From an uncultured Hungatella sp. (GTDB lineage Bacteria; Bacillota; Clostridia; Lachnospirales; Lachnospiraceae): a stretch of 33,739 bases of DNA. This document shows, piece after piece, positions 5,831 to 33,739 of this stretch (its first letter is position 1; each line of letters opens with the position of its first letter). Made by a program: the position numbers and the translations under genes. Under the pieces are notes generated by a model. That model did no database searches. It was not told where the DNA came from and saw only the letters and a list, made by a program, of their open reading frames with translations. The stretch covers positions 1-33,739 of the forward strand of contig CATLBO010000029.1 of NCBI GenBank assembly GCA_949879025.1. Direction: 5' to 3'.

Positions 5831-6646
5831 TCACGCCTCTACCTGTTCCTCCATTACTTTCAGCCTTTCTCTTAGCAGTATTAGGCTAACCCCTGCCGGA
5901 TTCAGGATATATCCCTTTGCATCTTTGATCAAAGATGGCAAAAGTCCTTTAAACGGCACGGTCACCACTCTGAATTTTGATGTTCTCTCTTTCGTAAACT
6001 TCCTAAATTCCCACATATCCGAAAACAGCGGCTGGAAAATCTCCCCTTCCCCATTTTTTACATAAGGGATCTGAATATTCTGACCATGTTTCTGGGGGTC
6101 AAACTCGCCCTCGACTTTGCTGACATCAATAGCCATAACGTACTGAGAGCGCACCAGATTTACCATCATCTCCTGCTCCATAGACTGAAGGCGCTTTCTT
6201 CTCTCCAAATCTTCCGAAGACTGCCCCGGCCGACGCAGCTCCTGAAGAAAATAAATCATAGTAAGCTGCAAAGTGGCATTCTTTCCAGGAAATCCAACCT
6301 TTTCTCCCTCCGGCTGCTTCAGAGTCACGATCTCATCCAGCGGAAGATAAGAAAAACCGGCTCCACTATGAAATGCCACTCGATTTACTCCCATTAAATG
6401 AAAGCTGGAGTAAACTATCAGTATCTGCTCTTTCTCTGCCTTTACCGTAGTCAACGGAATATTTTGTTCTCCGTATTCCTTTGCCCAGTTTTTCGCATCT
6501 TCCTCATTGGCAAACAGATATACCTGATCGTCAAATGATTCCTTATCACATTCCACATAGGGCATCCTGGTAGTCTGCGCAAAAGAGACAAATACCGTCT
6601 CCAGGCTCTGTAATCTTTTTATCATAAATCTGTTATCCACCGCCAT
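5831..6646 (-). CDS. SseB family protein
   Basis: This 271-residue soluble protein resembles SseB-family proteins: an N-terminal alpha/beta unit (residues about 1-115, with VYLFANEEDAKNWAKEYG) joined to a second unit near the C terminus (QPLFSDMWEFRKFTKE and VVTVPFKGLLPSLI, ending NPAGVSLILLRERL). E. coli SseB is linked to serine sensitivity, but the biochemical role of the family is not established. The ATG at 6644-6646 has GGGAGG 9 nt upstream; an in-frame TTG two codons earlier is less likely. A promoter candidate lies about 180 nt upstream, and recQ follows after a short gap. Confidence 0.75.
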   Translation of the reverse strand: MAVDNRFMIKRLQSLETVFVSFAQTTRMPYVECDKESFDDQVYLFANEEDAKNWAKEYGEQNIPLTTVKAEKEQILIVYSSFHLMGVNRVAFHSGAGFSYLPLDEIVTLKQPEGEKVGFPGKNATLQLTMIYFLQELRRPGQSSEDLERRKRLQSMEQEMMVNLVRSQYVMAIDVSKVEGEFDPQKHGQNIQIPYVKNGEGEIFQPLFSDMWEFRKFTKERTSKFRVVTVPFKGLLPSLIKDAKGYILNPAGVSLILLRERLKVMEEQVEA

Positions 6647-10809: not shown

Positions 10810-11556
10810 TTAATTGCACTTCAGCATCTCTGTCAAATCTTTATATTCCTGTGCAGTTACTTTCCGGAATGTTCCTGCTTTTAAATTACCCAAATGCACA
10901 TTCATAATACGAATACGCCGCAGGCTTCTGACACTATATCCCAGTGTGTCACACATCCTCCGTATCTGCCGATTTAACCCCTGAGTTAATATAATATGAA
11001 ACTCCTGCTGTCCTGTTATGATAACTCTGCATGGTTTTGTAGTTATATTCAATTCCTTCAGCCAGATGCCTGCTTCCATCTTTTTTGCAAAATCTTCTGT
11101 CAATTTTTTATTCACCTGAACCACATATTCCTTCTCGTGGCTGTTAGAACTCCTCATAATTCGGTTGACCAGCTCTCCCTGGTTTGTCAGGAAAATCAGT
11201 CCCTCGGAGTCCTTGTCCAGACGCCCTACAGGATATACCCGCTCTGGATATTTTACCATCTCCACAATGTTCACAGCCCGATCTTTATCCGATGTAGTAC
11301 ATACCACACCCTTGGGCTTATTAACTGCCAGAAGAACTGGTTTGGGCTTTGACAAGATCTTTTCATTCCCTTTTTCCCAGACGCCTCCTACCTTCTTGCC
11401 CTCGCAAATTACAGTCTGGCTGCCTTTAACTTTCATTCCCATAATAGCTGTTTTTCCATCCACCAAAACCTTTCCAGCCTCAATAAGCCGATCTGCTTCC
11501 CTTCGGGAACATATGCCCATTTCACTTAAATATTTATTTAAACGAATTTCTTCCAT
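10810..11556 (-). CDS. rluF: 23S rRNA pseudouridine synthase, RluF/RsuA type
   Basis: A 248-residue protein with an N-terminal S4 RNA-binding domain (IRLNKYLSEMGICSRREADRL written as residues 4-24) and an RsuA/RluB/E/F catalytic domain. The catalytic Asp is in PVGRLDKDSEGL. Other family marks are NKPKGVVCT and LTQGLNRQIRRMCDTLGY. RluF isomerises a uridine in helix 80 of 23S rRNA; separating RluF from RluB, RluE or RsuA by eye is uncertain, though the ending NVHLGNLKAGTFRKV suits RluF. It lies between queA and ligA on the same strand, probably in one transcript. Confidence 0.85.
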   Translation of the reverse strand: MEEIRLNKYLSEMGICSRREADRLIEAGKVLVDGKTAIMGMKVKGSQTVICEGKKVGGVWEKGNEKILSKPKPVLLAVNKPKGVVCTTSDKDRAVNIVEMVKYPERVYPVGRLDKDSEGLIFLTNQGELVNRIMRSSNSHEKEYVVQVNKKLTEDFAKKMEAGIWLKELNITTKPCRVIITGQQEFHIILTQGLNRQIRRMCDTLGYSVRSLRRIRIMNVHLGNLKAGTFRKVTAQEYKDLTEMLKCN

Positions 11557-12739: not shown

Positions 12740-13630
12740 TCATTCAGACAATTGTGCTCCTCCCACAATAACCTCAGAACCTTGCTCTCCATAAATTCTC
12801 TGCAATACTTCATCCTGAGCAACAGCCTCTTCCTGCCGTGCAAAAACTTGTCCCATAACCGCTTTTACTTCCGGCTTCTCTCCCACCTTCCGTATATACT
12901 CATTAACTTTGGCATCTGTTGTAGAAACCATATAGTACTGCCCATTTTCATTTTTCTTTACATATGCCCAGCTGATAGCAGGCATTAAGGTCTCTATTTC
13001 CCGATAACGTATTTCATAATATGGGAAAATAACATAAGAATCCTCCTCCGGTCCCTGAACCAAATAACAGGATATATTCTCATAGCTTTTTATGCTGGCT
13101 TTCACCAGCTCCATTTTGGCCCGCTCCTGATCTTTTCTCTCATCTGACCAGTCTTCAATGCCAAACACCTGTTCCAAAAGTTCCGGATCACATTCGGTCT
13201 TTGCCTCACAGTACAGCCTCACAAGCCCTGTCAGTTCCAACATGGAATCCTGCTGAAGAGGCTGTCCCAAAGGATCTGCCAGCTCCGGCAACGTTTCCTC
13301 TGTATCCGCTCCCTCATCGCTGTCCTGCTGTTCCTGCCCAACATCTTCTTCTGTATTCTCGCTCTTTACTATGGTCTCTTGCCCTGGCTGAGCATCATAA
13401 CTTTCCTCCAGGATGCCGTTCATCCCATCTCCATTCCCCGTCATCCCGGCTTCGGAAGCATCCTCCAATACCGAAGAAATACTATCATTTTTTCCTTCGC
13501 TTCGTCGATCCGCAGCCACAATTATAATAATTAGTGAAACCACAGTCAGTGGAATTACTGCAAAACGAATTAATTTTGCAGTCTGTTTCCGCTGATTATT
13601 TCCTTTTGCCGGTCTTCTCTGATTTGCCAT
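12740..13630 (-). CDS. Membrane-anchored protein of unknown function
   Basis: I do not recognise this 296-residue protein. A basic N terminus ([17 protein letters not shown]) precedes one transmembrane helix at about residues 21-40 ([18 protein letters not shown]). A very acidic, low-complexity linker of about 85 residues follows. The C-terminal 165 residues look folded ([49 protein letters not shown]). The basic-inside rule puts this C-terminal domain outside the cell. The ATG at 13628-13630 has CGGAGG 10 nt upstream. It leads the probable operon with queA, rluF, ligA and metA and has a good promoter before it. Confidence 0.75.
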
Positions 13631-14196: not shown

Positions 14197-15144
14197 ATGG
14201 TATACGAAATGTTTCAAACAAAGGTAACTGACACGCTCCAGTCATGTCTTGGAACTGACTATCAGCTAATGCTCCAGAAAGTTCCCAAAAACAATGGCAC
14301 ACTTCTGGACGGTCTCTGCATCACCAGAAAGGAGCAGAAAATTTCCCCTACAATCTATCTGAATAGTTACTACGAGCGCTATCAGGAAGGGATTCCGTTT
14401 CATTCTATTGTCAAAGAGATTCTTCAGGTTTATCAGGATAACTCCTCAGTTACACATCTTGATTTTTCCATTCTTAATGATTTTCCTCAGTTGAGAAAAA
14501 AGGTTGTTTATAAACTGATTCATACGGCTTCCAATAAAGAGCTGCTGGATACTATGCCTTCTGTTCCCTATTTGGATCTGTCCATTGTTTTTTACCTGCA
14601 CCTGGAAAAAAATGAATCCGGTCAAATGACAGCTTTAATCCATAATGACCATATGAAATCCTGGGATACCACTGTAGAAGAATTGTATGCGCTTGCTCTG
14701 GACAATACGCCCCGACTTCTTCCTGCCCAGCTTCGCAGCATGGCAGAAGTTATGAAGGACATTGCAAAAGAGCATTTAGGAGAAGATTTCCGAGAAGAAT
14801 TTATTGACAGCCTCCTGTCTGTCCGCCCGTTTTCACCTCTCTATGTCCTTACTAATTCATCAGGTATCTGTGGAGCCTGTGCCATCCTTTATCCAAATCA
14901 ATTAAAAAACTTCGCAGATATCATGGGAACAGACCTTGTTATCCTTCCCTCCAGCATCCACGAAGTTTTATTAATCCCCTACCACGACCGTATCTCGTTT
15001 CAGGAACTTGCTGATATGGTTTCCCATATTAATCGGACAGAGGTGCCTGTGGAAGACCGTCTTTCCGATCAGGTTTATCTGTATTCTCAAAACCTTGACA
15101 CGGTCATATTAGCTGGACCGCCTATTCCCTCTATTCTATCATAG
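14197..15144 (+). CDS. DUF5688 family protein
   Basis: A 315-residue cytosolic protein of a family common and often multicopy in Lachnospiraceae; its function is unknown. Visible features are an N-terminal block (VPKNNGTLLDGLCITRKEQ, PTIYLNSYYERYQEG), a middle VPYLDLSIVFYLHL strand region, and a C-terminal PLYVLTNSSGICGACAILYP and DLVILPSSIHEVLLIPY block. The latter recurs in family members. The ATG has GGAGG at a 7-nt spacing. It is the only chromosomal gene in the window on the plus strand and converges on feoB with a 13-nt gap. Confidence 0.75.
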   Translation: MVYEMFQTKVTDTLQSCLGTDYQLMLQKVPKNNGTLLDGLCITRKEQKISPTIYLNSYYERYQEGIPFHSIVKEILQVYQDNSSVTHLDFSILNDFPQLRKKVVYKLIHTASNKELLDTMPSVPYLDLSIVFYLHLEKNESGQMTALIHNDHMKSWDTTVEELYALALDNTPRLLPAQLRSMAEVMKDIAKEHLGEDFREEFIDSLLSVRPFSPLYVLTNSSGICGACAILYPNQLKNFADIMGTDLVILPSSIHEVLLIPYHDRISFQELADMVSHINRTEVPVEDRLSDQVYLYSQNLDTVILAGPPIPSILS

Positions 15145-19800: not shown

Positions 19801-21102
19801 TCACCCCGCATCCGGAAGAAATTCTTTTACATCTACAACAATCTCCAACAGTTCCTTTTTAAAATTTTCTATCTCTCTCAGGTTCGGTAAAACCTCCTTC
19901 ATATATTCCTCAATTTCCGGCACCCCATCCGCTATGATACCTTTATTATCGGCGTAAACGTCCATAGTTATGAGTTCCTTGGCATGTCCCATAAGCTTCG
20001 ATACCGCTTTGGGGTTGAATGCCTCTTTTAGCAGGAGCGTGCAGTATGTACTACGCAAATCATGCCAGCGGATGTCCGGCAGGCCATTTTCAGCAAGAAG
20101 CTGTTTATAATACCTGCAATGGAACCCTTTGCTCCTTGCTCTGCCATAGTTGGAACAACAGATATAATCCATATCCTGAAACTCTCCCTTTCTACGGTTT
20201 CTGTTTCTCTCATAAACCTGTCGTTCCTTTAAGATTGCCTCAAAAACATAATCAGGAATCGGAATCTCTCTGTAACTGGATTTTGTCTTTAATCCCACCT
20301 CCTGTTTCGTAAAAGTTTTCGGGGCAAAGTCTTCTTTTACTGCATTATGTATCCTCCCCAACTGACGTTCCACTTTTAAGGTGCGGTTGATATAATCTAC
20401 ATCCGAATATTTTACACCATTGATCTCGGACCTGCGGAGCCCCATAAGTACATTAAACAGCACCTGCATATGGATCGGGGTATCTTTGCTCTTTTCCAGC
20501 AGAACCGAAATCTGCTCCATAGTCAGTGTTTTCTGTTCATCTATATTTCGGGTCCTGAAGCCTAATTTGGGCTGCGGCTTTTCCGCTTTAGGAAGCCCTA
20601 TTCCATCCACCGGACTGGTCGGGATCACTTTGGCCGTTACCGCATAACGAAAAGAGACATTCATGATTGTTTTTACCTGCTCTGCTATCGGTCTCGAATA
20701 GTCTGCCTTGATATTAAACAATTTTTGAACGTCTCCGCGAGTAACATCCGTCATTTTTTTCTTACCCAGGATGGGAATGATATGATTCTTTACTATTCCG
20801 CAATAATTATAGTACGTTTCGTGACTGTCTGTGCGCTTTTTAAGATCCGTTTCAAGCCAAAACATCATATAATCAGCCACATTAACTTTTGCGTACACAA
20901 CAAACGTACCATTATATAATTCTGCGATGGTCTTCTCTCTTGCCTTATTTGCTTCTTTCTCTGTTTTGAATCCGGACTTCTGCTGTGGTTTTTCGCTCCC
21001 ATCCGGATATTTCAGGAATACCCTGTAGCCGAAGCCGGAGCGCACAGGTATTACCTGTGACACTCTCCAATCGACATAATTTTTCAAGCTCAAATCTAGC
21101 AT
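19801..21102 (-). CDS. Tyrosine recombinase/integrase (second of pair)
   Basis: A 433-residue phage-type integrase. The N-terminal part (residues 20-60) resembles an AP2-like arm-binding domain, then comes a SAM-like core-binding domain (about 72-160). The catalytic domain has Arg223 (GLRRSEI), a Lys near 273, His347 and Arg350 (WHDLRSTYC), His373 (MGHA) and the nucleophile Tyr383 (MDVYAD), so all key residues are present. Its ATG overlaps the stop of the upstream recombinase by 7 bp, with GGGAG upstream. It should integrate and, with the excisionase, excise the element. Confidence 0.92.
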   Translation of the reverse strand: MLDLSLKNYVDWRVSQVIPVRSGFGYRVFLKYPDGSEKPQQKSGFKTEKEANKAREKTIAELYNGTFVVYAKVNVADYMMFWLETDLKKRTDSHETYYNYCGIVKNHIIPILGKKKMTDVTRGDVQKLFNIKADYSRPIAEQVKTIMNVSFRYAVTAKVIPTSPVDGIGLPKAEKPQPKLGFRTRNIDEQKTLTMEQISVLLEKSKDTPIHMQVLFNVLMGLRRSEINGVKYSDVDYINRTLKVERQLGRIHNAVKEDFAPKTFTKQEVGLKTKSSYREIPIPDYVFEAILKERQVYERNRNRRKGEFQDMDYICCSNYGRARSKGFHCRYYKQLLAENGLPDIRWHDLRSTYCTLLLKEAFNPKAVSKLMGHAKELITMDVYADNKGIIADGVPEIEEYMKEVLPNLREIENFKKELLEIVVDVKEFLPDAG

Positions 21103-22292
21103 GTCGCAACACTCCCTTCCGGAACAAACGTATGATTCATAAACGTGATAATCTGCTCATTCTCATCCATGACCTCACAATAATATTCAAAGGTTGTATT
21201 GACACTTGCATGTCCCAACAGGGCAGATATTTTAATCAAAGGAACTTTCTGCTCTACCAATATAGTGGCATACATATGTCTCAGACCATGAACCGTAATG
21301 TGGGGCAGGCCATTTCTGGAACACAGTTTTGACAAAGCGCTGTTCATAGCGGCAGTTGAATGCGGCAGACCGTTTTCCTGACACGAAATATAATCGTGGT
21401 CAAAATATTGTTCGCCATACTGCTGCTTATTAGATTCTGCCAGAATCCTTCTTCTTTCAATTTCCGCAGCCACAGCCTCTGGTATCCTCAATAGCCTGTA
21501 ACTATTGTCCGTCTTTGGCGGTTTCTCTATGACTTCATACGTTTTAATTTTTCTTTCACCCTTTGGAATAACAGGATTGGATGTAATTTGCCGCTGAATA
21601 TAGATTGTCCTGTTTTCAGCATCAAAATCTCCGAATTTCAAACCTGAAATTTCACCTTTTCTGAGTCCGCAGAACAACCCAAGCAGAATCTCCAGATACC
21701 ATCCGCTATTGTAAGCAGCTTTCAGAAGTTTTTTCACATTTGCTTTGTTTAAAATGATAATTGTTGGCTTTTTTCTCGGATATGATTTCGTTGCAGATAT
21801 CGGATTCCTTTTGATATATTCCTGTATTACGGCCTCTTTCATTGCCATGTTCAAGAACTCTCTGGATTTGTTGCCAGCGGAATCGCATGCCTTTGATACA
21901 ACAGCCAGCAGGGAATCAAAATATTCCTCATTTGCATATCGCAATTTTATATCCTGCTGCATATTCGGAAGGATCAGGTCGTACAGTACATAAGCACATA
22001 CCATGCGGGTTGTATTCTCAATCCTCTGTGAAAATATATCCTCAAACCAATAAAGCAAATAATCTTTCAAATCAACATCTGCATTAGGTTTTGCCGACAT
22101 CTGATAAGTTCTGGAAGCTTTCTTAAACTCTTCCTCGTATTTGTAATAGCTTGCTTCCGCTTCTGCCTCACTCTGAAAGCCTCCACGTTTGCTGTACTTT
22201 ACAGAACCATCTGGCTGCAGCAGCTTAACTCTATGAAACCAGGATGTTTCTTCATAAAAGACAACTCCCTTTTTCTTTGCTGGCTGTTTCAT
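21096..22292 (-). CDS. Tyrosine recombinase/integrase (first of pair)
   Basis: A 398-residue recombinase, clearly different from its partner. The N-terminal arm-binding-like region has WFHRVKLLQPDGS, then a core-binding domain and the catalytic domain with Arg211 (GLRKGEI), His335 and Arg338 (VHGLRHMYA), His361 (LLGHAS) and Tyr370 or Tyr371 (TFEYYCEV). The ATG at 22290-22292 has GAGGTG upstream; a longer reading from 22319 lacks a better site. Both recombinases look active, so they may form a heteromeric recombinase or act at different sites. Confidence 0.92.
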   Translation of the reverse strand: MKQPAKKKGVVFYEETSWFHRVKLLQPDGSVKYSKRGGFQSEAEAEASYYKYEEEFKKASRTYQMSAKPNADVDLKDYLLYWFEDIFSQRIENTTRMVCAYVLYDLILPNMQQDIKLRYANEEYFDSLLAVVSKACDSAGNKSREFLNMAMKEAVIQEYIKRNPISATKSYPRKKPTIIILNKANVKKLLKAAYNSGWYLEILLGLFCGLRKGEISGLKFGDFDAENRTIYIQRQITSNPVIPKGERKIKTYEVIEKPPKTDNSYRLLRIPEAVAAEIERRRILAESNKQQYGEQYFDHDYISCQENGLPHSTAAMNSALSKLCSRNGLPHITVHGLRHMYATILVEQKVPLIKISALLGHASVNTTFEYYCEVMDENEQIITFMNHTFVPEGSVATC

Positions 22293-22305
22293 TAAATCAC
22301 CTCTC

Positions 22306-22521
22306 TTATAAATCACCATTCAGCCATTCATCAAATCCTTTCTTTGGCACTCTAAAAAGCTTACCAATTTTAAGAACTCTGAACGGCGGGTTTTTCTGCT
22401 TATACACATCTTCAAGGAAGGTATAGGCTTTACTCTTTCCTATTCCAAGCATGCGCTGAATATCGCCTGCCAGGTATACCTGCTGATCAACTGCCGCTTC
22501 ATTATATATATCTGCTGCCAT
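22306..22521 (-). CDS. Excisionase-like helix-turn-helix protein
   Basis: A 71-residue protein with a MerR/excisionase-type winged helix-turn-helix: VYLAGDIQRMLGIGKSKAYTF followed by a wing PFRVLKIGKLFRVPKKGFDEW (about residues 15-67; shown as two pieces). Such proteins bend DNA at attachment sites to favour excision. It is the first gene of the minus-strand recombination module, 13 nt before the first recombinase, with AGAGG 9 nt before its ATG. Confidence 0.8.
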   Translation of the reverse strand: MAADIYNEAAVDQQVYLAGDIQRMLGIGKSKAYTFLEDVYKQKNPPFRVLKIGKLFRVPKKGFDEWLNGDL

Positions 22522-23022: not shown

Positions 23023-23105
23023 GGTTCTGCTCTTTCCCCGTAAATAGGGATATGCTACACTAAATATGCTTAAAACTGTATCCAGAAGCAATCCGGGCTG
23101 GCATG

Positions 23106-23132
23106 GCACCTTTCCAAAGAGGTGCTTTTTTT
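23106..23132 (+). terminator. First leader terminator before the conjugation operon
   Basis: GCACCT pairs with AGGTGC around an 8-nt loop and seven T residues follow. It lies about 120 nt before the first conjugation gene. Confidence 0.7.
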
Positions 23133-27652: not shown

Positions 27653-30109
27653 TTGAACCCGGTGGCGGACTACCTGCCCATCCGTAAGATAGAAAACGGC
27701 ATTATCTACACGAAGGACCACCGGTATGTGAAGGTGGTGGAGGTGATCCCCATCAACTTCCTGCTCCGCAGCGCCAGGGAACAGAGGGGCATCATCTATT
27801 CCTTTGTTTCCTATTTAAAGATAAGCCCCGTAAAGCTCCAGTTCAAGGTGCTGACCCGCCGTGCGGATATCGGGCGGCACATGGACACGGTGCGCCGGAA
27901 GATGGCCCAGGAGACCAACGGACAGTGCCGGCTCATGCAGGAGGATTACCTGCAGTTCATCCAGCAGATCTGTTCCCGCGAGGCTGTCACGCGCCGTTTC
28001 TTCCTGGTCTTTGAATACGAGCCCTGGAATGGCGCAAGGCGCACGGACGAGGAAGGGGAGGCCATCGGCTCCCTGCAGTCCGCCGTCCACACGGCCTCTA
28101 ATTACCTGCGCCAGTGTGGGAATGAAGTGGTGCTGCCGGACAACGAGGACGAGTTCACCATAGATGTGCTCTATAACCTCCTGTGCCGGAATGAGAGCGC
28201 CGCAAAGCCCCTCCCCGTCCGGGCAAAAGAGGTGGTGGCACAGTACCTGGCAGACGGAAGGGAATCTGACATTGACCATATCCCTGCCGGGGAATTTGTT
28301 GCGCCCAGAAGCATTGACTTTACCCACGGGCGGTACATCTGCATTGACGGGCTTTATTACGCCTACCTGCTGATCCCCTCGGACGGCTATAAGACCCATG
28401 TGCCGGCCGGCTGGCTCAGCCTGATGGTCAATGCCGGTGACGGGATCGACCTGGACATGTTCCTCTCCCGACAGCCCAAGGAGCGCATCATCCAGAAGGT
28501 GGGCCAGCAGCTGCGCATCAACCGCTCCCGGATCAAGGACGCCAGCGATACCAACACGGACTTTGACGATATGGACAGCGCCATCCGCAGCGGCTATTTC
28601 CTGAAGGAAGGGCTTGCCAACAATGAAGATTTTTACTTTATGAACCTGCTGGTCACGGTTACAGCCCCCAATGAGGAAGACCTGGAGTGGAAGGTCAGCG
28701 AGATGAAAAAGCTCCTGCTCTCCCAGGACATGCGGGTATCCACCTGCCACTTCCGGGAAGAGCAGGCATTCCTGACCGCCCTGCCCCTGGTATCCGTGGA
28801 AAAAGGGCTGTATGAGCGCAGCAGGCGCAACCTCCTGACCGGGGGCGCCGCAAGCTGCTACCCCTTTACCAGCTATGAGATGTGCGATGACAACGGCATC
28901 CTTTTAGGTGTAAATAAGTACAACAGCTCCCTGATCATTGTGGATATCTTTAATTCCGCCGTCTACAAAAACGCAAACATGGCGATCCTGGGCACTTCCG
29001 GCGCGGGCAAGACCTTCACCATTCAGCTCATGGCCCTGCGGATGCGGCGCAAGGGAATCCCCATTTTCATCATTGCCCCGTTAAAGGGGCATGAGTTCCA
29101 CCGGGCCTGTGCCAATGTGGGCGGCGAGTTCATCCAGGTCTCCCCGGCAAGCCCCCACTGTATCAACGTGATGGAGATCCGGCAGGTGGACCGCACCGTG
29201 AACGAACTGCTGGACGGCCCCGGCATCCAGTTGTCAGAACTGGCGGAGAAGATCCAGCGGCTCCATATCTTTTTCAGCCTGCTGATCCCGGACATGAACC
29301 ATGAAGAGCGCCAGCTTCTGGACGAGGCCCTGATCCACACCTACAACAAGAAAGGCATCACCCATGACAACGCATCCCTGGCAGACCCCAAAGACCCGGC
29401 ACGATACCGGGAGATGCCGGTACTGGGCGACCTTTATGGAATACTGAAGAAATCGGCTGCCACAAAACGGCTGGCAAATATCCTGAACCGCCTGGTGAAC
29501 GGCTCCGCCAGCACCTTCAACCAGCAGACCAACGTGTCCCTGGACAACCGATATACCGTTCTGGATATCTCTTCCCTGACCGGGGACCTGCTGACCGTGG
29601 GGATGTTCGTAGCACTGGATTTTGTCTGGGACCGGGCCAAGGAGGACCGTACCGAGGAAAAGACCATCTTCATTGACGAATGCTGGCAGCTCTTATCCGG
29701 AGCCGGCGCCACGGGCACACGTCTTGCCGGCGACTTTGTACTGGAGATCTTCAAGACCATCCGAGGGTACGGGGGTTCCGCCGTCTGTGCCAGCCAGGAC
29801 CTGAATGACTTCTTTAACCTGGATGAAGGACGGTTTGGGAAAGGCATTATCAACAACTCCAAGACCAAGATCATCCTGAACCTGGAGGATGACGAGGCCA
29901 TGCGCATGCAGAGCGCCCTCCACCTCTCCGATGCGGAGATCATGGAGGTCACCCACTTTGAACGGGGCAACGGCCTAATCAGCACCAACAACAATAACAT
30001 CATGGTGGAGTTCAAGGCAAGCCCCCTGGAGAAAGACCTGATCACCACGGACAGAAGGGAACTGAAAGACATCGTGGAACGGATGCGGCGGCAGAATGAA
30101 GCCGGATAA
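27653..30109 (+). CDS. VirB4-type conjugation ATPase
   Basis: From TTG 27653 the protein has 818 residues. An N-terminal VirB4/TraC-like domain (about 1-400) contains KIENGIIYTKDHRYVKVVEV and LLRSAREQRGIIYSF. The ATPase domain has Walker A GTSGAGKT (about residue 447) and Walker B TIFIDECWQL (about 670). A further block is GSAVCASQDLNDFF. VirB4 ATPases power assembly of the secretion channel and substrate transfer. The TTG has no Shine-Dalgarno in front, and the open frame continues upstream, so the real N terminus is probably longer or the protein is joined to PrgI. Confidence 0.9.
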   Translation: MNPVADYLPIRKIENGIIYTKDHRYVKVVEVIPINFLLRSAREQRGIIYSFVSYLKISPVKLQFKVLTRRADIGRHMDTVRRKMAQETNGQCRLMQEDYLQFIQQICSREAVTRRFFLVFEYEPWNGARRTDEEGEAIGSLQSAVHTASNYLRQCGNEVVLPDNEDEFTIDVLYNLLCRNESAAKPLPVRAKEVVAQYLADGRESDIDHIPAGEFVAPRSIDFTHGRYICIDGLYYAYLLIPSDGYKTHVPAGWLSLMVNAGDGIDLDMFLSRQPKERIIQKVGQQLRINRSRIKDASDTNTDFDDMDSAIRSGYFLKEGLANNEDFYFMNLLVTVTAPNEEDLEWKVSEMKKLLLSQDMRVSTCHFREEQAFLTALPLVSVEKGLYERSRRNLLTGGAASCYPFTSYEMCDDNGILLGVNKYNSSLIIVDIFNSAVYKNANMAILGTSGAGKTFTIQLMALRMRRKGIPIFIIAPLKGHEFHRACANVGGEFIQVSPASPHCINVMEIRQVDRTVNELLDGPGIQLSELAEKIQRLHIFFSLLIPDMNHEERQLLDEALIHTYNKKGITHDNASLADPKDPARYREMPVLGDLYGILKKSAATKRLANILNRLVNGSASTFNQQTNVSLDNRYTVLDISSLTGDLLTVGMFVALDFVWDRAKEDRTEEKTIFIDECWQLLSGAGATGTRLAGDFVLEIFKTIRGYGGSAVCASQDLNDFFNLDEGRFGKGIINNSKTKIILNLEDDEAMRMQSALHLSDAEIMEVTHFERGNGLISTNNNNIMVEFKASPLEKDLITTDRRELKDIVERMRRQNEAG

Positions 30110-30119
30110 CAAAAAGGAT

Positions 30120-30188
30120 TACGCACCGTATACGCATGATTTACGCAATCCCTTTTTCCATACGTCCGTTATACGCACAGATTACGCA
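30120..30188. repeat. Phased TACGCA repeats, two triplets
   Basis: TACGCA starts at 30120, 30131, 30142, 30172 and 30183, with TACGTC at 30161. The steps are 11, 11, 19, 11 and 11 bp, so two triplets have one-turn spacing and the same orientation. They fill the gap between the virB4 stop and the ribosome binding site of the DUF5697 gene. This looks like a binding array for a protein, or a repeated RNA element. Confidence 0.75.
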
Positions 30189-30220
30189 TTTACAAAAAGA
30201 CAGAAAGGAAGGTGGTGCCA

Positions 30221-30748
30221 GTGAAGACCAGGGCAGAGTTATACGGCCATGAAGCCACGGAACTGCTCCGGATCATATCCATGTATCCGGGACTTTCAGA
30301 AAAACAGTTATGCCGGTTCTACCCTGGCCGGGAGGATGTCACCAGGAACCTGCTCTCCCACCTGTGCAGACAGGGGCGTACCCGGCAGGCAGACACCGGG
30401 GGATATTTCCCCTATGGGAACGGTAAAGCAGAAACCGATCCCGGTATGGTGCGGGCGGCATGGGTACTGCTTGATTTTATCGACAGGGCGGAATACCACT
30501 CATCCAGTGAGTTCCCCGTAAAGATTGCCTTTTTCTCTAAAGGTGAACTATATGAGATCGTCCATGCCGCTGCCGGACAGGAGGCGCTTGTCGCCCATGC
30601 ACTGCGCCAGAGCCGTGACAGTGGCGGCCGCCGTATCGTGCTGGTGGATGACCCCGGGCAGATCCCCCTGCTGGAATTTCCGGGGATAACCGGATTCTCT
30701 ATGGTAGATGGCAGCGGGAATGTAAGCTACTACAAAAAATCAAAATAA
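30221..30748 (+). CDS. DUF5697 family protein
   Basis: A 175-residue protein that I recognise as DUF5697, found in conjugative elements of Lachnospiraceae; function unknown. The N-terminal third is a helix-turn-helix-like unit (ATELLRIISMYPGLSEKQLC, then VTRNLLSHLCRQGR). The rest is alpha/beta (AAWVLLDFIDRAEYH, FPVKIAFFSKGELYEI, RRIVLVDDPGQIPLLEF). The start is taken as GTG 30221 with AGGAAGG 8 nt upstream; an in-frame GTG at 30212 overlaps that site. It directly follows the phased TACGCA array, so it could be the protein that binds there. Confidence 0.7.
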   Translation: MKTRAELYGHEATELLRIISMYPGLSEKQLCRFYPGREDVTRNLLSHLCRQGRTRQADTGGYFPYGNGKAETDPGMVRAAWVLLDFIDRAEYHSSSEFPVKIAFFSKGELYEIVHAAAGQEALVAHALRQSRDSGGRRIVLVDDPGQIPLLEFPGITGFSMVDGSGNVSYYKKSK

Positions 30749-30814: not shown

Positions 30815-31477
30815 TTGGACCGAAAGATTATCTCACGCCGGATTGCAGATATCCAGAACAGCCTGTCACGGCTGAACAACAACATCTGCGCTATGGATTC
30901 CCTGGATATCCAGAGGTATCCCGAAAACTATGAAACCATGTCAACCGAAGCCGCCCTGCGGGCCGAAGGGATCGCCTGCCAGCTCAGGAATCTCCTTTAC
31001 GCTTCCACCTCTGTTTCCAAAGCAGAGTACCTTGTGCAAGCCGGGGAAGTACATGGTATAGAGATCCTTTATGAAAATGGCATTTTGGAAGTAATCCTCC
31101 CACGGCTGCTCCCAAAGAAAAAAATGCGCCAGAGCAGCCTGTTCCTGCTTGACCCTCTCCATGCGGTACTGGGACAGTATGCAAAAGAGCATCCCATGCC
31201 CCACTTCCGGGAATGCGTGGTATGTATCTCCCATGTGTATGACCATGAGCTGCCGGACTGGTGCCTGCTGGACTATGACAACCTGCAGCAGAAACAGATC
31301 CTGGATGCCATCGCCCTGTATGTGATGGCCGATGACAGCGGGCTTTTATGTGATGCCTACAATACTACGGAGCTTGGAGATAAGGATTGTACCCATATCT
31401 ATATCATGGAAAAAGGCCGCTTCGCCGCATGGCTCTCCGGGCGGGAAAAAGATTTAAAATCCATATCGGATTTTTGA
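30815..31477 (+). CDS. DUF6100 family protein
   Basis: A 220-residue soluble protein of a family I associate with clostridial conjugative elements (DUF6100); function unknown. The N-terminal half is helical (IISRRIADIQNSLSRLNNNI, MSTEAALRAEGIACQLRNLL). A middle alpha/beta part contains AGEVHGIEILYENGILEVIL and PRLLPKKK. The C terminus has ECVVCISHVYDHELPDWCLL, DYDNLQQKQILDAIALYVM and a final HIYIMEKGRFAAWL. The start is TTG with AAGGAGGG 6 nt upstream. Confidence 0.65.
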   Translation: MDRKIISRRIADIQNSLSRLNNNICAMDSLDIQRYPENYETMSTEAALRAEGIACQLRNLLYASTSVSKAEYLVQAGEVHGIEILYENGILEVILPRLLPKKKMRQSSLFLLDPLHAVLGQYAKEHPMPHFRECVVCISHVYDHELPDWCLLDYDNLQQKQILDAIALYVMADDSGLLCDAYNTTELGDKDCTHIYIMEKGRFAAWLSGREKDLKSISDF

Positions 31478-31641: not shown

Positions 31642-32763
31642 TTGGATGATAAAAGAAGATTCCCAAAACAGGACACATTAGGCTTACACCTGCTGGAAAT
31701 GGCTGCTGTCTGTGGCGAACTGCCAACAGACCTGCTTACCCGGCTTTCCGGCAGTTCTTCCTATACCGAGACCGTCATAACTTCCCTGAAAAAAGACGGC
31801 CTTCTGAAAACCTATTATAAGGATAAGCTGCGCGGCTACCGCCTGGGGCAGAGGGCAAAACGAATCCTGTTGGAAAGGCAGCCGGAACGCTTTTCCTTCT
31901 ATCTTACCGGAAACGTGGAGACTAACCGGATTAAAAGCGAAGTCCCACGCCGGATACGGCTCCACCGGGTTGCGGAAACCTATGTTGCCATGCAGAATGC
32001 CGGCATTGCCGTGTTCCGTGACGAAAAACCCTTGGTATTTTCCCCCGGAGGTTCTCCGGTAGCCCGGCTTGACTCCCCTGCCTTTTACAGTTCCCGTGAA
32101 GTCAAAGAAATGGGAATCGAGACTGTGAAGATCCGTGGCTCGCGGATGACAGGGGTGCTCCTTGCTCCATCCGGTGTTTTTATTTCCTATAACGGCGGCA
32201 GTCATATGCTGAAATGGGATTACCGGGCTGAGCAGAGGGCACAGGCGCTCCTGCAGATGGTGGTCTGCCATCAGCGCCTTTCCGTACAGCATACAAGTAC
32301 CTGTGTTTCCGGCCTGCTGTTTGGCAATGACCTGGAACCCTTCTACCGGATCTTTGCGGATTCAGATACAGAGTCACGCTGTTTCTTTCTTCTGGACGGC
32401 AATTATGAACATTTTTATTACCTGACCAATGACCATTACGGGGATACGCTGCTGAAGCTTCTGTACCGCCCGGAGGGTACAGCGGAACTTGACCACATGC
32501 TGATGCAGGGATTTTATCCAAAGGATACGGGGCTTCCCATAGAACATGACGCCCTGGATCAGAACGGGAACCCGGTGCTGTTCGGCTATTTCCTGGACAT
32601 CCCCCGCATCAACCGTTTCCATACGGCGCTCCAGCTGCAGGAACGGACGGGAACCCTGATCTGCTTTGACTTCCAGAAGGAAGTTCTCCACCGCTTCTGC
32701 GGAGGACAGGTAGGGTTTTCCACCATCAGCTTTGAAAAATTTGAAAGGAGGTTTTTCCCATAG
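31642..32763 (+). CDS. Conjugation-operon protein with winged-helix N terminus
   Basis: A 373-residue protein that I cannot name. Residues 5-85 look like a winged helix-turn-helix (LGLHLLEMAAVCGELPTDLL, then SSYTETVITSLKKDGLLKTY and a GYRLGQRAKRIL wing). The C-terminal 280 residues form an unknown alpha/beta domain (RIRLHRVAETYVAMQNAGI, GVLLAPSGVFISYNGG, LICFDFQKEVLHRF). The layout recalls replication-relaxation or initiator-like proteins, but no catalytic motif is visible. The start is TTG with GGAGGTG 5 nt upstream. The TAG stop overlaps the proposed ATA start of virD4. Confidence 0.6.
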   Translation: MDDKRRFPKQDTLGLHLLEMAAVCGELPTDLLTRLSGSSSYTETVITSLKKDGLLKTYYKDKLRGYRLGQRAKRILLERQPERFSFYLTGNVETNRIKSEVPRRIRLHRVAETYVAMQNAGIAVFRDEKPLVFSPGGSPVARLDSPAFYSSREVKEMGIETVKIRGSRMTGVLLAPSGVFISYNGGSHMLKWDYRAEQRAQALLQMVVCHQRLSVQHTSTCVSGLLFGNDLEPFYRIFADSDTESRCFFLLDGNYEHFYYLTNDHYGDTLLKLLYRPEGTAELDHMLMQGFYPKDTGLPIEHDALDQNGNPVLFGYFLDIPRINRFHTALQLQERTGTLICFDFQKEVLHRFCGGQVGFSTISFEKFERRFFP

Positions 32764-33739
32764 ACAAGAAAAAAATACTGAAAGGGCTGGTCACTGCCCC
32801 CATCGCCATCCTTGCCGTCCTGTATGCGGCCGGCTACCTGGGGCAGTTCATCGGCAACTACGCCCTCTGGAAACAGGGGGGCGGCTACCCTGGGGATGGC
32901 ACTTCTCCCCTGCCTCCCACTCCTTCCTTCTCCGTCTGTCTGCACGCAGCAGTCCGCCCGCCATACGGGATCTACGGCATTTTTATCTGTATCGGGCTTT
33001 TGGCGGTGCTGCTCCTTTTCGTCATGCGGATCGGGTACAGCGACACCGGGGAATATGACGGGGACCGGAACTTCACCTATTCCGCCAAAGGCACTTACGG
33101 CACGTCCGGCTGGATGAGCCGGAAGGAGATGTCCGGCGTCCTGGAACTGGTGGCCGACCTGCGCCGGTATCAGGGGATCGTCCTGGGCATGCTGGAGCGG
33201 AAGGCAGTCTGTGTGCCGGAGAAGACACGGCTCAACAGCAACCTGGCAGTCTATGGCGCCAGCGGCTCCATGAAGACACGCTCCTTCTGCATGAACCGTA
33301 TTTTACAGGGGGTATCCCGCGGGGAATCCCTGGTCATCTGCGACCCGAAATCGGAGCTGTACGAAAAGTCAAGCGAGTACCTGCGTGACAAGGGCTATAC
33401 CGTCCGTGTGTTCAATCTGGTCAATCCGGAGAACTCGGATTCCTGGAACTGCCTTTGTGAAGTGGAAGGCCAGGAACTGATGGCACAGCTTTTTGTGGAC
33501 GTCATCATCAAAAACACCACGGGCGGCGGCAAGGGAGACCATTTCTGGGATTCCGCTGAAATGAACCTGTTAAAAGCTCTGGTGCTGTATGTGGACAAGG
33601 GCTATCCCCCGGAGAACCGGAACATGGGCCAGGTGTACCAGCTCATCACTTTAAATTCGGAGACTGCACTGAACAGCCTGTTTGAAGTCCTGCCCATCAA
33701 CCATCCGGCCAAGGCACCTTACAGCCTGTTCAAGCAGGC
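32760..33739 (+). CDS. VirD4/TraG type IV coupling protein, 5' part, unusual ATA start
   Basis: The open frame runs to the window edge. Two N-terminal membrane helices (ILKGLVTAPIAILAVLYAAG and GIYGIFICIGLLAVLLLFVM) precede a conserved YSAKGTYGTSGWM block. The Walker A-like GASGSMKT is at about residue 166, and ICDPKSELYEKSSEYL, NPENSDSWNCL and GDHFWDSAEMNLLKALVLY follow. VirD4 proteins link the relaxase-DNA complex to the channel. The frame has a TGA at 32742, and no ATG, GTG or TTG before about residue 80, which would lose the first helix. ATA at 32760-32762 lies 8 nt after GGAGG and overlaps the previous stop, so it is the probable start. Confidence 0.85.
   Translation, partial: MDKKKILKGLVTAPIAILAVLYAAGYLGQFIGNYALWKQGGGYPGDGTSPLPPTPSFSVCLHAAVRPPYGIYGIFICIGLLAVLLLFVMRIGYSDTGEYDGDRNFTYSAKGTYGTSGWMSRKEMSGVLELVADLRRYQGIVLGMLERKAVCVPEKTRLNSNLAVYGASGSMKTRSFCMNRILQGVSRGESLVICDPKSELYEKSSEYLRDKGYTVRVFNLVNPENSDSWNCLCEVEGQELMAQLFVDVIIKNTTGGGKGDHFWDSAEMNLLKALVLYVDKGYPPENRNMGQVYQLITLNSETALNSLFEVLPINHPAKAPYSLFKQ

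Follow-up and report, generated by a model that had tools for sequence, protein, structure and literature searches.

The gap between a virB4-like conjugation gene and a DUF5697 gene of an uncultured Hungatella sp. holds six short boxes in two triplets, and the question raised by this locus is what such boxes are for and which protein may bind them. The whole stretch of DNA analysed, 33,739 nucleotides of contig CATLBO010000029.1, is called the window below. An earlier note, made from the letters alone, had proposed an iteron-like or operator array, with the DUF5697 protein as first candidate binder and a repeated motif in mRNA as an alternative. In our best reading, the array is a set of conserved DNA sites, predicted to be bound by protein and forming part of a system that has several sites in the element, its partition operon among them.

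The box array and its gene neighbourhood

The gap sits within a conjugation gene cluster that comprises tandem tyrosine recombinases, a C39 peptidase, a VirB4-like ATPase, DUF5697, DUF6100, a hypothetical gene and a VirD4-like gene (Table 1). The last name is putative and was taken from the same gene order in the Vescimonas record. For a comparison with replication iterons, where a Rep gene next to the repeats would be expected, the neighbours of the array are virB4, DUF5697 and DUF6100. A second GTG in frame with DUF5697 is found at 30212. The tandem recombinase genes adjoin uvrB, and in a related element (G015:C41) a similar ORF pair was seen by eye beside uvrB- and feoB-like ORFs.

Table 1. 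Position of the boxes and of the surrounding genes in the window
Feature	Coordinates	Strand	Remarks
Tandem overlapping tyrosine recombinase genes (two)	19801..22319 (19801-21102, 21096-22319)	-	
VirB4-like conjugation ATPase	27653..30109	+	CD1110 family is the best NCBIfam match, at 251 bits (cut-off 325 not reached)
Array-holding gap, virB4-like gene to DUF5697 gene	30110..30211	.	
First triplet	30120..30147	+	TACGCA at 30120, 30131, 30142; 11-bp steps
Second triplet	30161..30188	+	TACGTC at 30161, TACGCA at 30172 and 30183; 11-bp steps
DUF5697 protein (PF18954)	30221..30748	+	GTG start at 30221; HTH-like N terminus suspected
DUF6100 protein, after DUF5697	30815..31477	+	
Hypothetical protein, after DUF6100	31642..32763	+	without Pfam match
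VirD4-like coupling protein, 5' part	32790..33739	+	truncated by contig end; start set by eye

Re-reading of the sequence placed the six boxes exactly where the earlier note had them, on a single strand and with steps of 11, 11, 19, 11 and 11 bp. The two triplets are 71% identical. At 10.5 bp per turn the boxes stand at angles of 0, 17, 34, -34, -17 and 0 degrees, and the helical phasing claimed in the note is confirmed, with all six within +/-34 degrees on a single face of the helix. That the arrangement is not due to chance was also borne out: two TACG triplets at 11 bp are present in the window versus none in 300 dinucleotide shuffles of it, and 5000 shuffles of the gap yielded none. The number of TTACGCA words in the window is by itself not significant (5 versus 2.63 expected). 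The lag-11 autocorrelation of the window gap alone is modest (p 0.0074, or 0.22 allowing any lag from 5 to 35), and the strength of the case for phasing therefore lies in the relatives. In the genome of origin, which is 83% complete, all three matches to the two-box pattern with one mismatch fall in the array and the nine remaining matches carry two; the totals, 7 forward and 5 reverse, are at the level of the control (8 and 6).

A simple scan of positions 29900-30400 found neither a sense-strand promoter-like site nor a terminator, its sole promoter-like match being antisense and inside DUF5697. Four related loci (L040, L042, L044 and L038) present a promoter-like TGCTACAAT (TGCTAAAAT in L038) before the array and, between this sequence and the array, a short terminator-like hairpin (GCACC...GGTGCTTTTTTT). 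A hairpin resembling it is located at about 23105-23130 of the window. A coding repeat is unlikely, as the reading frame before DUF5697 has stops within 120 nt in the window and in nine of 18 relatives; it is open in the other nine, coding being judged by frame stops alone.

Conservation of the phasing in related elements

Scanning of genome contigs gave 19 loci, 18 of which reach the gap; L030, where the locus ends before the gap, was omitted. The 18 relatives include several near copies, and L002/L014 and L008/L024 each denote a single place. When T-A/G-CG-C/T-A/C or TACACA (L014, L023, L025, L026, L027) is accepted as a box, the six places all read as boxes with steps of 11, 11, 19, 11 and 11 in 17 of the 18, the exception being L024, in which the first box is TACGCG at the correct position. 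The phasing is kept in all 18 close relatives. The earlier note had proposed this very alignment and had named as telling against it related elements with the same genes and no conserved 11-bp repeats; the repeats are conserved in 18/18, and that outcome was not found. In L028 (RAZE01000001.1) the DUF5697 match ends at residue 126 and the array is intact; no ParM close to the window type was found in its genome (best identity 26%).

The phasing extends to more distant elements. In G71, with a DUF5697 protein 62% identical, the array steps are 11, 11, 11, 18, 11 and 11. Judged by eye, the ORF that separates virB4 from the G71 array (L009, about 1890-2735) resembles radical-SAM genes, and the sequence preceding the G198 array (L033) looks similar to this region. 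DUF5697 matches at E 0.001 were obtained in 21 of 299 genomes of the family, 13 of 392 of the order and 19 of 391 of the class draw (19, 13 and 17, respectively, over the curated cut-off), the genome of the window being counted in each draw. After removal of redundancy (36 to 26), the upstream gaps, trimmed to 260 nt if large and thus possibly including coding DNA, with that of L038 set by hand, gave combined z values of 8.6, 4.9 and 2.6 at lags 11, 22 and 33, and no other lag exceeded 1.8. Taken singly, 13 of the 26 gaps reach z > 1.64 at lag 11 and seven are negative. The box letters vary between elements while the phasing persists. The spacing between groups of boxes is 19 in the window type and G983, 18 in G71 and Vescimonas, 29 in G050 and G198, and 73 in Subdoligranulum; in G390 the boxes are continuous, with no spacer between groups. 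The array is not universal before DUF5697, the gap being at most 45 nt in 17 of 55 loci, and in G429 (L068) the repeat period is about 20 bp rather than 11. The conserved phasing, together with similar arrays before many, not all, DUF5697 genes, supports the idea of an iteron-like or operator array. In viral contigs the box pattern matched 27 stretches, judged to be about chance level without a control, and no DUF5697 relative was confirmed in these contigs.

Box sites upstream of parM and the candidate binding proteins

Scanning of the G71 element revealed an extra triplet, and the gene downstream of it encodes an actin-like ParM (PF21522, PF17989). Right after this parM comes a ParR-like gene, whose ribbon-helix-helix character was judged by eye. 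ParM of this type is encoded on the DUF5697 contig in many elements. The distance is mostly 40-84 kb, with extremes of about 12 (G050) and 120 kb (G184); in seven window-type relatives it is about 54-69 kb. Of 17 window-type genomes, 13 have a ParM with 65% or higher identity to the G71 protein, those without it being G1029, G1032, G1033 and G1044. Neither ParM nor ParR was found in the window's own incomplete assembly (83%); its element may carry parMR, to judge from relatives.

Upstream of parM, the phased boxes match in kind those of the element's own DUF5697 array, e.g. TGCGTA in the window type, GGCGTC in G198 and CTACGTA in G270 and G060. The elements compared were hand-picked as non-redundant and the near copies G182, G311, G228, G184 and G053 were omitted. 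An array has more k-mers in common with the parM-upstream region of its own element than with those of other elements; in permutations, own versus other, p was 2e-4, 6e-4 and 2e-4 for seven elements and 1.5e-4, 5e-5 and 5e-5 for ten (k=5, 6 and 7); at k=6 the own array ranks first for five of the ten parM regions.

In scans with array boxes, the parM-upstream site outscored every shuffled control (single-base shuffles, 4-6 per scan) in five of ten elements. Scores were 27.8 versus 20.6 in Hungatella, with a matrix made of boxes from the window and five relatives, not from the scanned array alone, and a marginal 20.8 versus 20.6 in G71, both approximate because the last three G71 boxes and five close-relative sets are one base off. 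With three boxes, the site scored 26.4 versus 17.2 in Vescimonas and 18.5 versus 14.1 in G060, which fails with two (13.2 versus 13.7); G198 reached 20.7 versus 15.1 with two boxes and fails with three (18.3 versus 19.2), its scan also yielding an above-shuffle match within a gene. The clearest case is the Vescimonas plasmid pMM35_02, where the parM-upstream site is the only other site in 50 kb (six shuffles). The site was not above shuffles in G270, G283, Subdoligranulum, G390 and G050. Box registers were set by eye in several scans, and are poor for Subdoligranulum and G283.

A third site, before a zinc-finger gene that adjoins a sigma-factor gene, scores above shuffles in G198, G270 and G958, and narrowly in G060. 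In G71 it stays under the best shuffled score (17.1 versus 20.6), and it is absent from Vescimonas and the window-type elements checked. Third-site loci are L094 (about 12860-12905, with a score below the shuffled maximum), L173 (about 14700-14770), L177 (about 6170-6210), L197 (about 11090-11160) and L192 (about 19250). The zinc-finger gene is DUF3268 in its G015 homologue, and precedes a sigma-70-like gene in several elements.

ParR itself goes with DUF5697. At E <= 1e-6, it was detected in 18 of 21 DUF5697-positive genomes versus 11 of 278 others (Fisher p 1e-18), where use of the same 299 genomes for both counts is inferred. The ParR query (A1) was built mostly from DUF5697-carrying genomes, and the co-occurrence was therefore recounted without the eight query genomes, giving 10 of 13 versus 11 of 278 (p 9e-11). 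Among 72,556 plasmid records, of uncounted host make-up, two contain a DUF5697 relative and the same two a ParR relative. These Oscillospiraceae records, OY725878.1 (247 kb) and NZ_AP023417.1 (142 kb), hold DUF5697-type conjugation clusters with parMR. Since they are recorded as plasmids, this type of element may live extrachromosomally.

Both ParR and DUF5697 are encoded by the elements, and either could bind the boxes. Mantel comparisons used seven linked elements, nine (adding the linked G390 and the unlinked G203) or ten linked ones (with G390 and both plasmids, without G203). Array 6-mer similarity follows the identity of the N-terminal, DNA-binding domain of ParR, with rho 0.52 (p 0.010), 0.48 (p 0.005) and 0.37 (p 0.011) for seven, nine and ten elements; at k=5 the correlation is weaker (p 0.058, 0.017 and 0.096). 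The corresponding values for the DUF5697 N-domain at k=6 are 0.01, 0.10 and 0.00. Among the few elements compared, a ParR strand ending in -GF goes with TACGTA in the array in all four cases, and the seven other elements lack this word; a strand ending in -RF goes with GCGTC/GACGC in three of four cases, against none of the six other elements. Two misfits were noted: the unlinked ParR of G038 reads -GF with an array lacking TACGTA, and the ParR of G238 reads -RF with no GGCG boxes upstream of parM. Searched against the PDB, the ParR profile had a designed repeat protein as its sole match.

We estimate at about 0.55 the probability that the boxes are one-face double-stranded DNA sites for an element-encoded protein, most likely ParR, that serve as centromere-like anchor and/or operator. 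We take ParR as the best candidate binder with moderate confidence; occupancy of the boxes and the centromere or regulatory function are inferred. ParR would be the ribbon-helix-helix partner of the actin-like ParM and would be arranged head to tail along the 11-bp repeats. In the relatives, the boxes upstream of parM would lie at the presumed promoter, where autoregulation is expected. The virB4/DUF5697 gap, with the richest array, holds the same boxes, as does, in some elements, the region before the zinc-finger/sigma-factor operon. Once bound by ParR, the gap array could anchor ParM filaments in the manner of a centromere, couple the transfer genes to partition as an operator, in the way StbA does in R388, or do both. 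The placement of the boxes beside transfer genes and, in relatives, before partition genes suggests that a single protein of the element, probably ParR, acts as controller or anchor for partition as well as transfer. The features usual for a parC site are distributed as follows. Direct repeats of about 10-20 bp are present as the 11-bp phased repeats, and cognate parM-parR is on the element in the linked relatives and the two plasmids but was not found in the window's own 83% complete assembly; the window array itself is not upstream of parM and precedes DUF5697, a separate box site being upstream of parM in the relatives. That the richest array precedes DUF5697, not parM, is evidence against ParR. 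Two linked elements, G050 and G390, have a parM whose upstream region lacks boxes.

The position of the richest arrays also favours DUF5697 as the binder, i.e. a helix-turn-helix autoregulator of its own operon that would act as well on the parM and zinc-finger operons. The largest arrays directly precede DUF5697 in widely differing elements, including loci in which virB4 is no longer adjacent (L009; L040/L044). Clear arrays occur in G983 (92% complete) and in G607 (99% complete, its contig stopping short of the expected parMR place), genomes in which no ParM was detected by two families and no ParR. G958, whose contig likewise stops short of that place, and G628, which was outside one search, have arrays and only another kind of ParM, the array of G628 being weak alone (z 1.3). 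However, the DUF5697 N-domain is uncorrelated with array similarity, and the G198 protein is about as close to that of Hungatella (60%) as the G71 protein is (66%), yet the boxes differ. The 17 loci with hardly any gap, and the boxes kept upstream of parM in G166, where no DUF5697 match was found, also speak against it. The predicted structure is poor (mean pLDDT 51), with an N-terminal three-helix HTH-like part; with this score and no Foldseek match at E <= 0.001 we claim no fold, and a PDB sequence search with DUF5697 gave nothing convincing. The first-choice binder of the earlier note is thus disfavoured, since it is ParR whose DNA-binding domain the array similarity tracks and since boxes recur upstream of parM, and we regard this explanation as unlikely.

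Another element-encoded regulator, e.g. of the OmpR/PhoB type or a sigma-associated factor, could bind the boxes everywhere. OmpR/PhoB proteins bind tandem repeats of about 11 bp. A gene of this type directly precedes parM in G71, an OmpR-like ORF was seen by eye nearby in G198, and the third site in some elements lies before a zinc-finger/sigma operon. Such neighbours were noticed, in passing, in G71 and G198 only, and the boxes track ParR similarity; we give this possibility little weight. The mRNA alternative, in which repeated UUACGCA would act as leader element or sponge, agrees with the transcript sense of all gap boxes. It is weakened by the boxes upstream of parM, which are opposite in sense to parM in Hungatella, G71, G198 and Vescimonas (sense is uninformative in G060 and G270, where the boxes are near-palindromic), and by the helix-face phasing. 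Moreover, the gap shows no RNA structure, folding worse than all 200 shuffles (z +2.45), and Rfam matched a tRNA elsewhere in the window and nothing at the gap; a role in mRNA is very improbable. Chance or a functionless remnant, for which the modest lag-11 signal of the single gap might plead, is scarcely credible against the 18/18 conservation, the z of 8.6 over 26 gaps and the boxes at a second site.

To return to ParR, we would tentatively go one step further and propose a dispersed ParR regulon in widespread conjugative elements of gut Clostridia. It could comprise an undescribed centromere-like array in the transfer operon and operators at parMR and sometimes at the sigma-factor operon, so that one protein might both segregate the excised element and set the transfer genes, sites and ParR specificity co-diversifying.

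Relation to known partition systems

In a limited literature search, no paper was found on DUF5697 or DUF6100, or combining ParMRC, Lachnospiraceae and conjugative. The present reading makes a connection between segregation and transfer testable in one group of conjugative elements from gut bacteria, and offers a first functional handle on the DUF5697 elements. The diverging pairs of site and ParR would constitute natural material for reading ParR specificity.

The comparisons below are based on the portions available of the cited papers. ParR of plasmid R1 requires at least two 11-bp repeats, the ParR site of one C. perfringens plasmid consists of two 8-bp repeats 3 bp apart, and, according to a heading, ParR homologues are unable to bind noncognate parC (PMC9426499). 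In these systems parC is usually upstream of parM (PMC9426499), whereas the richest array here sits in a transfer operon at a distance of tens of kb. In the SXT/R391 ICEs the srpMRC partition locus is active, and its site adjoins srpM (PMC4489591). The likeness is that of a type II (actin) partition system on an integrative and conjugative element; a satellite array is unmentioned in the portion available (PMC4489591). In R1, ParM and ParR act on transfer components and stimulate conjugation, so that partition and transfer are coupled as could be the case here; this coupling is described there as protein contacts (PMC4949242), unlike repeat arrays in transfer operons.

The closest system in logic is that of StbA and the stbDRs of R388. 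These are repeats of 9 bp + 2, in two sets of five around the stbABC promoter, with extra copies in other promoters, and StbA affects both stability and transfer (PMC3098194). The 11-bp period, the two sets, the multiple places and a protein linking segregation with conjugation all find a possible counterpart here, as several of our elements, though not all of them, have 11-bp-period repeats at two or three sites. R388 differs by its five repeats per set, by their location around the stbABC promoter and by the lack of a ParM in the system as described in the available text (PMC3098194). If our reading is true, the R388-type coupling of partition and conjugation would extend to elements of Clostridia.
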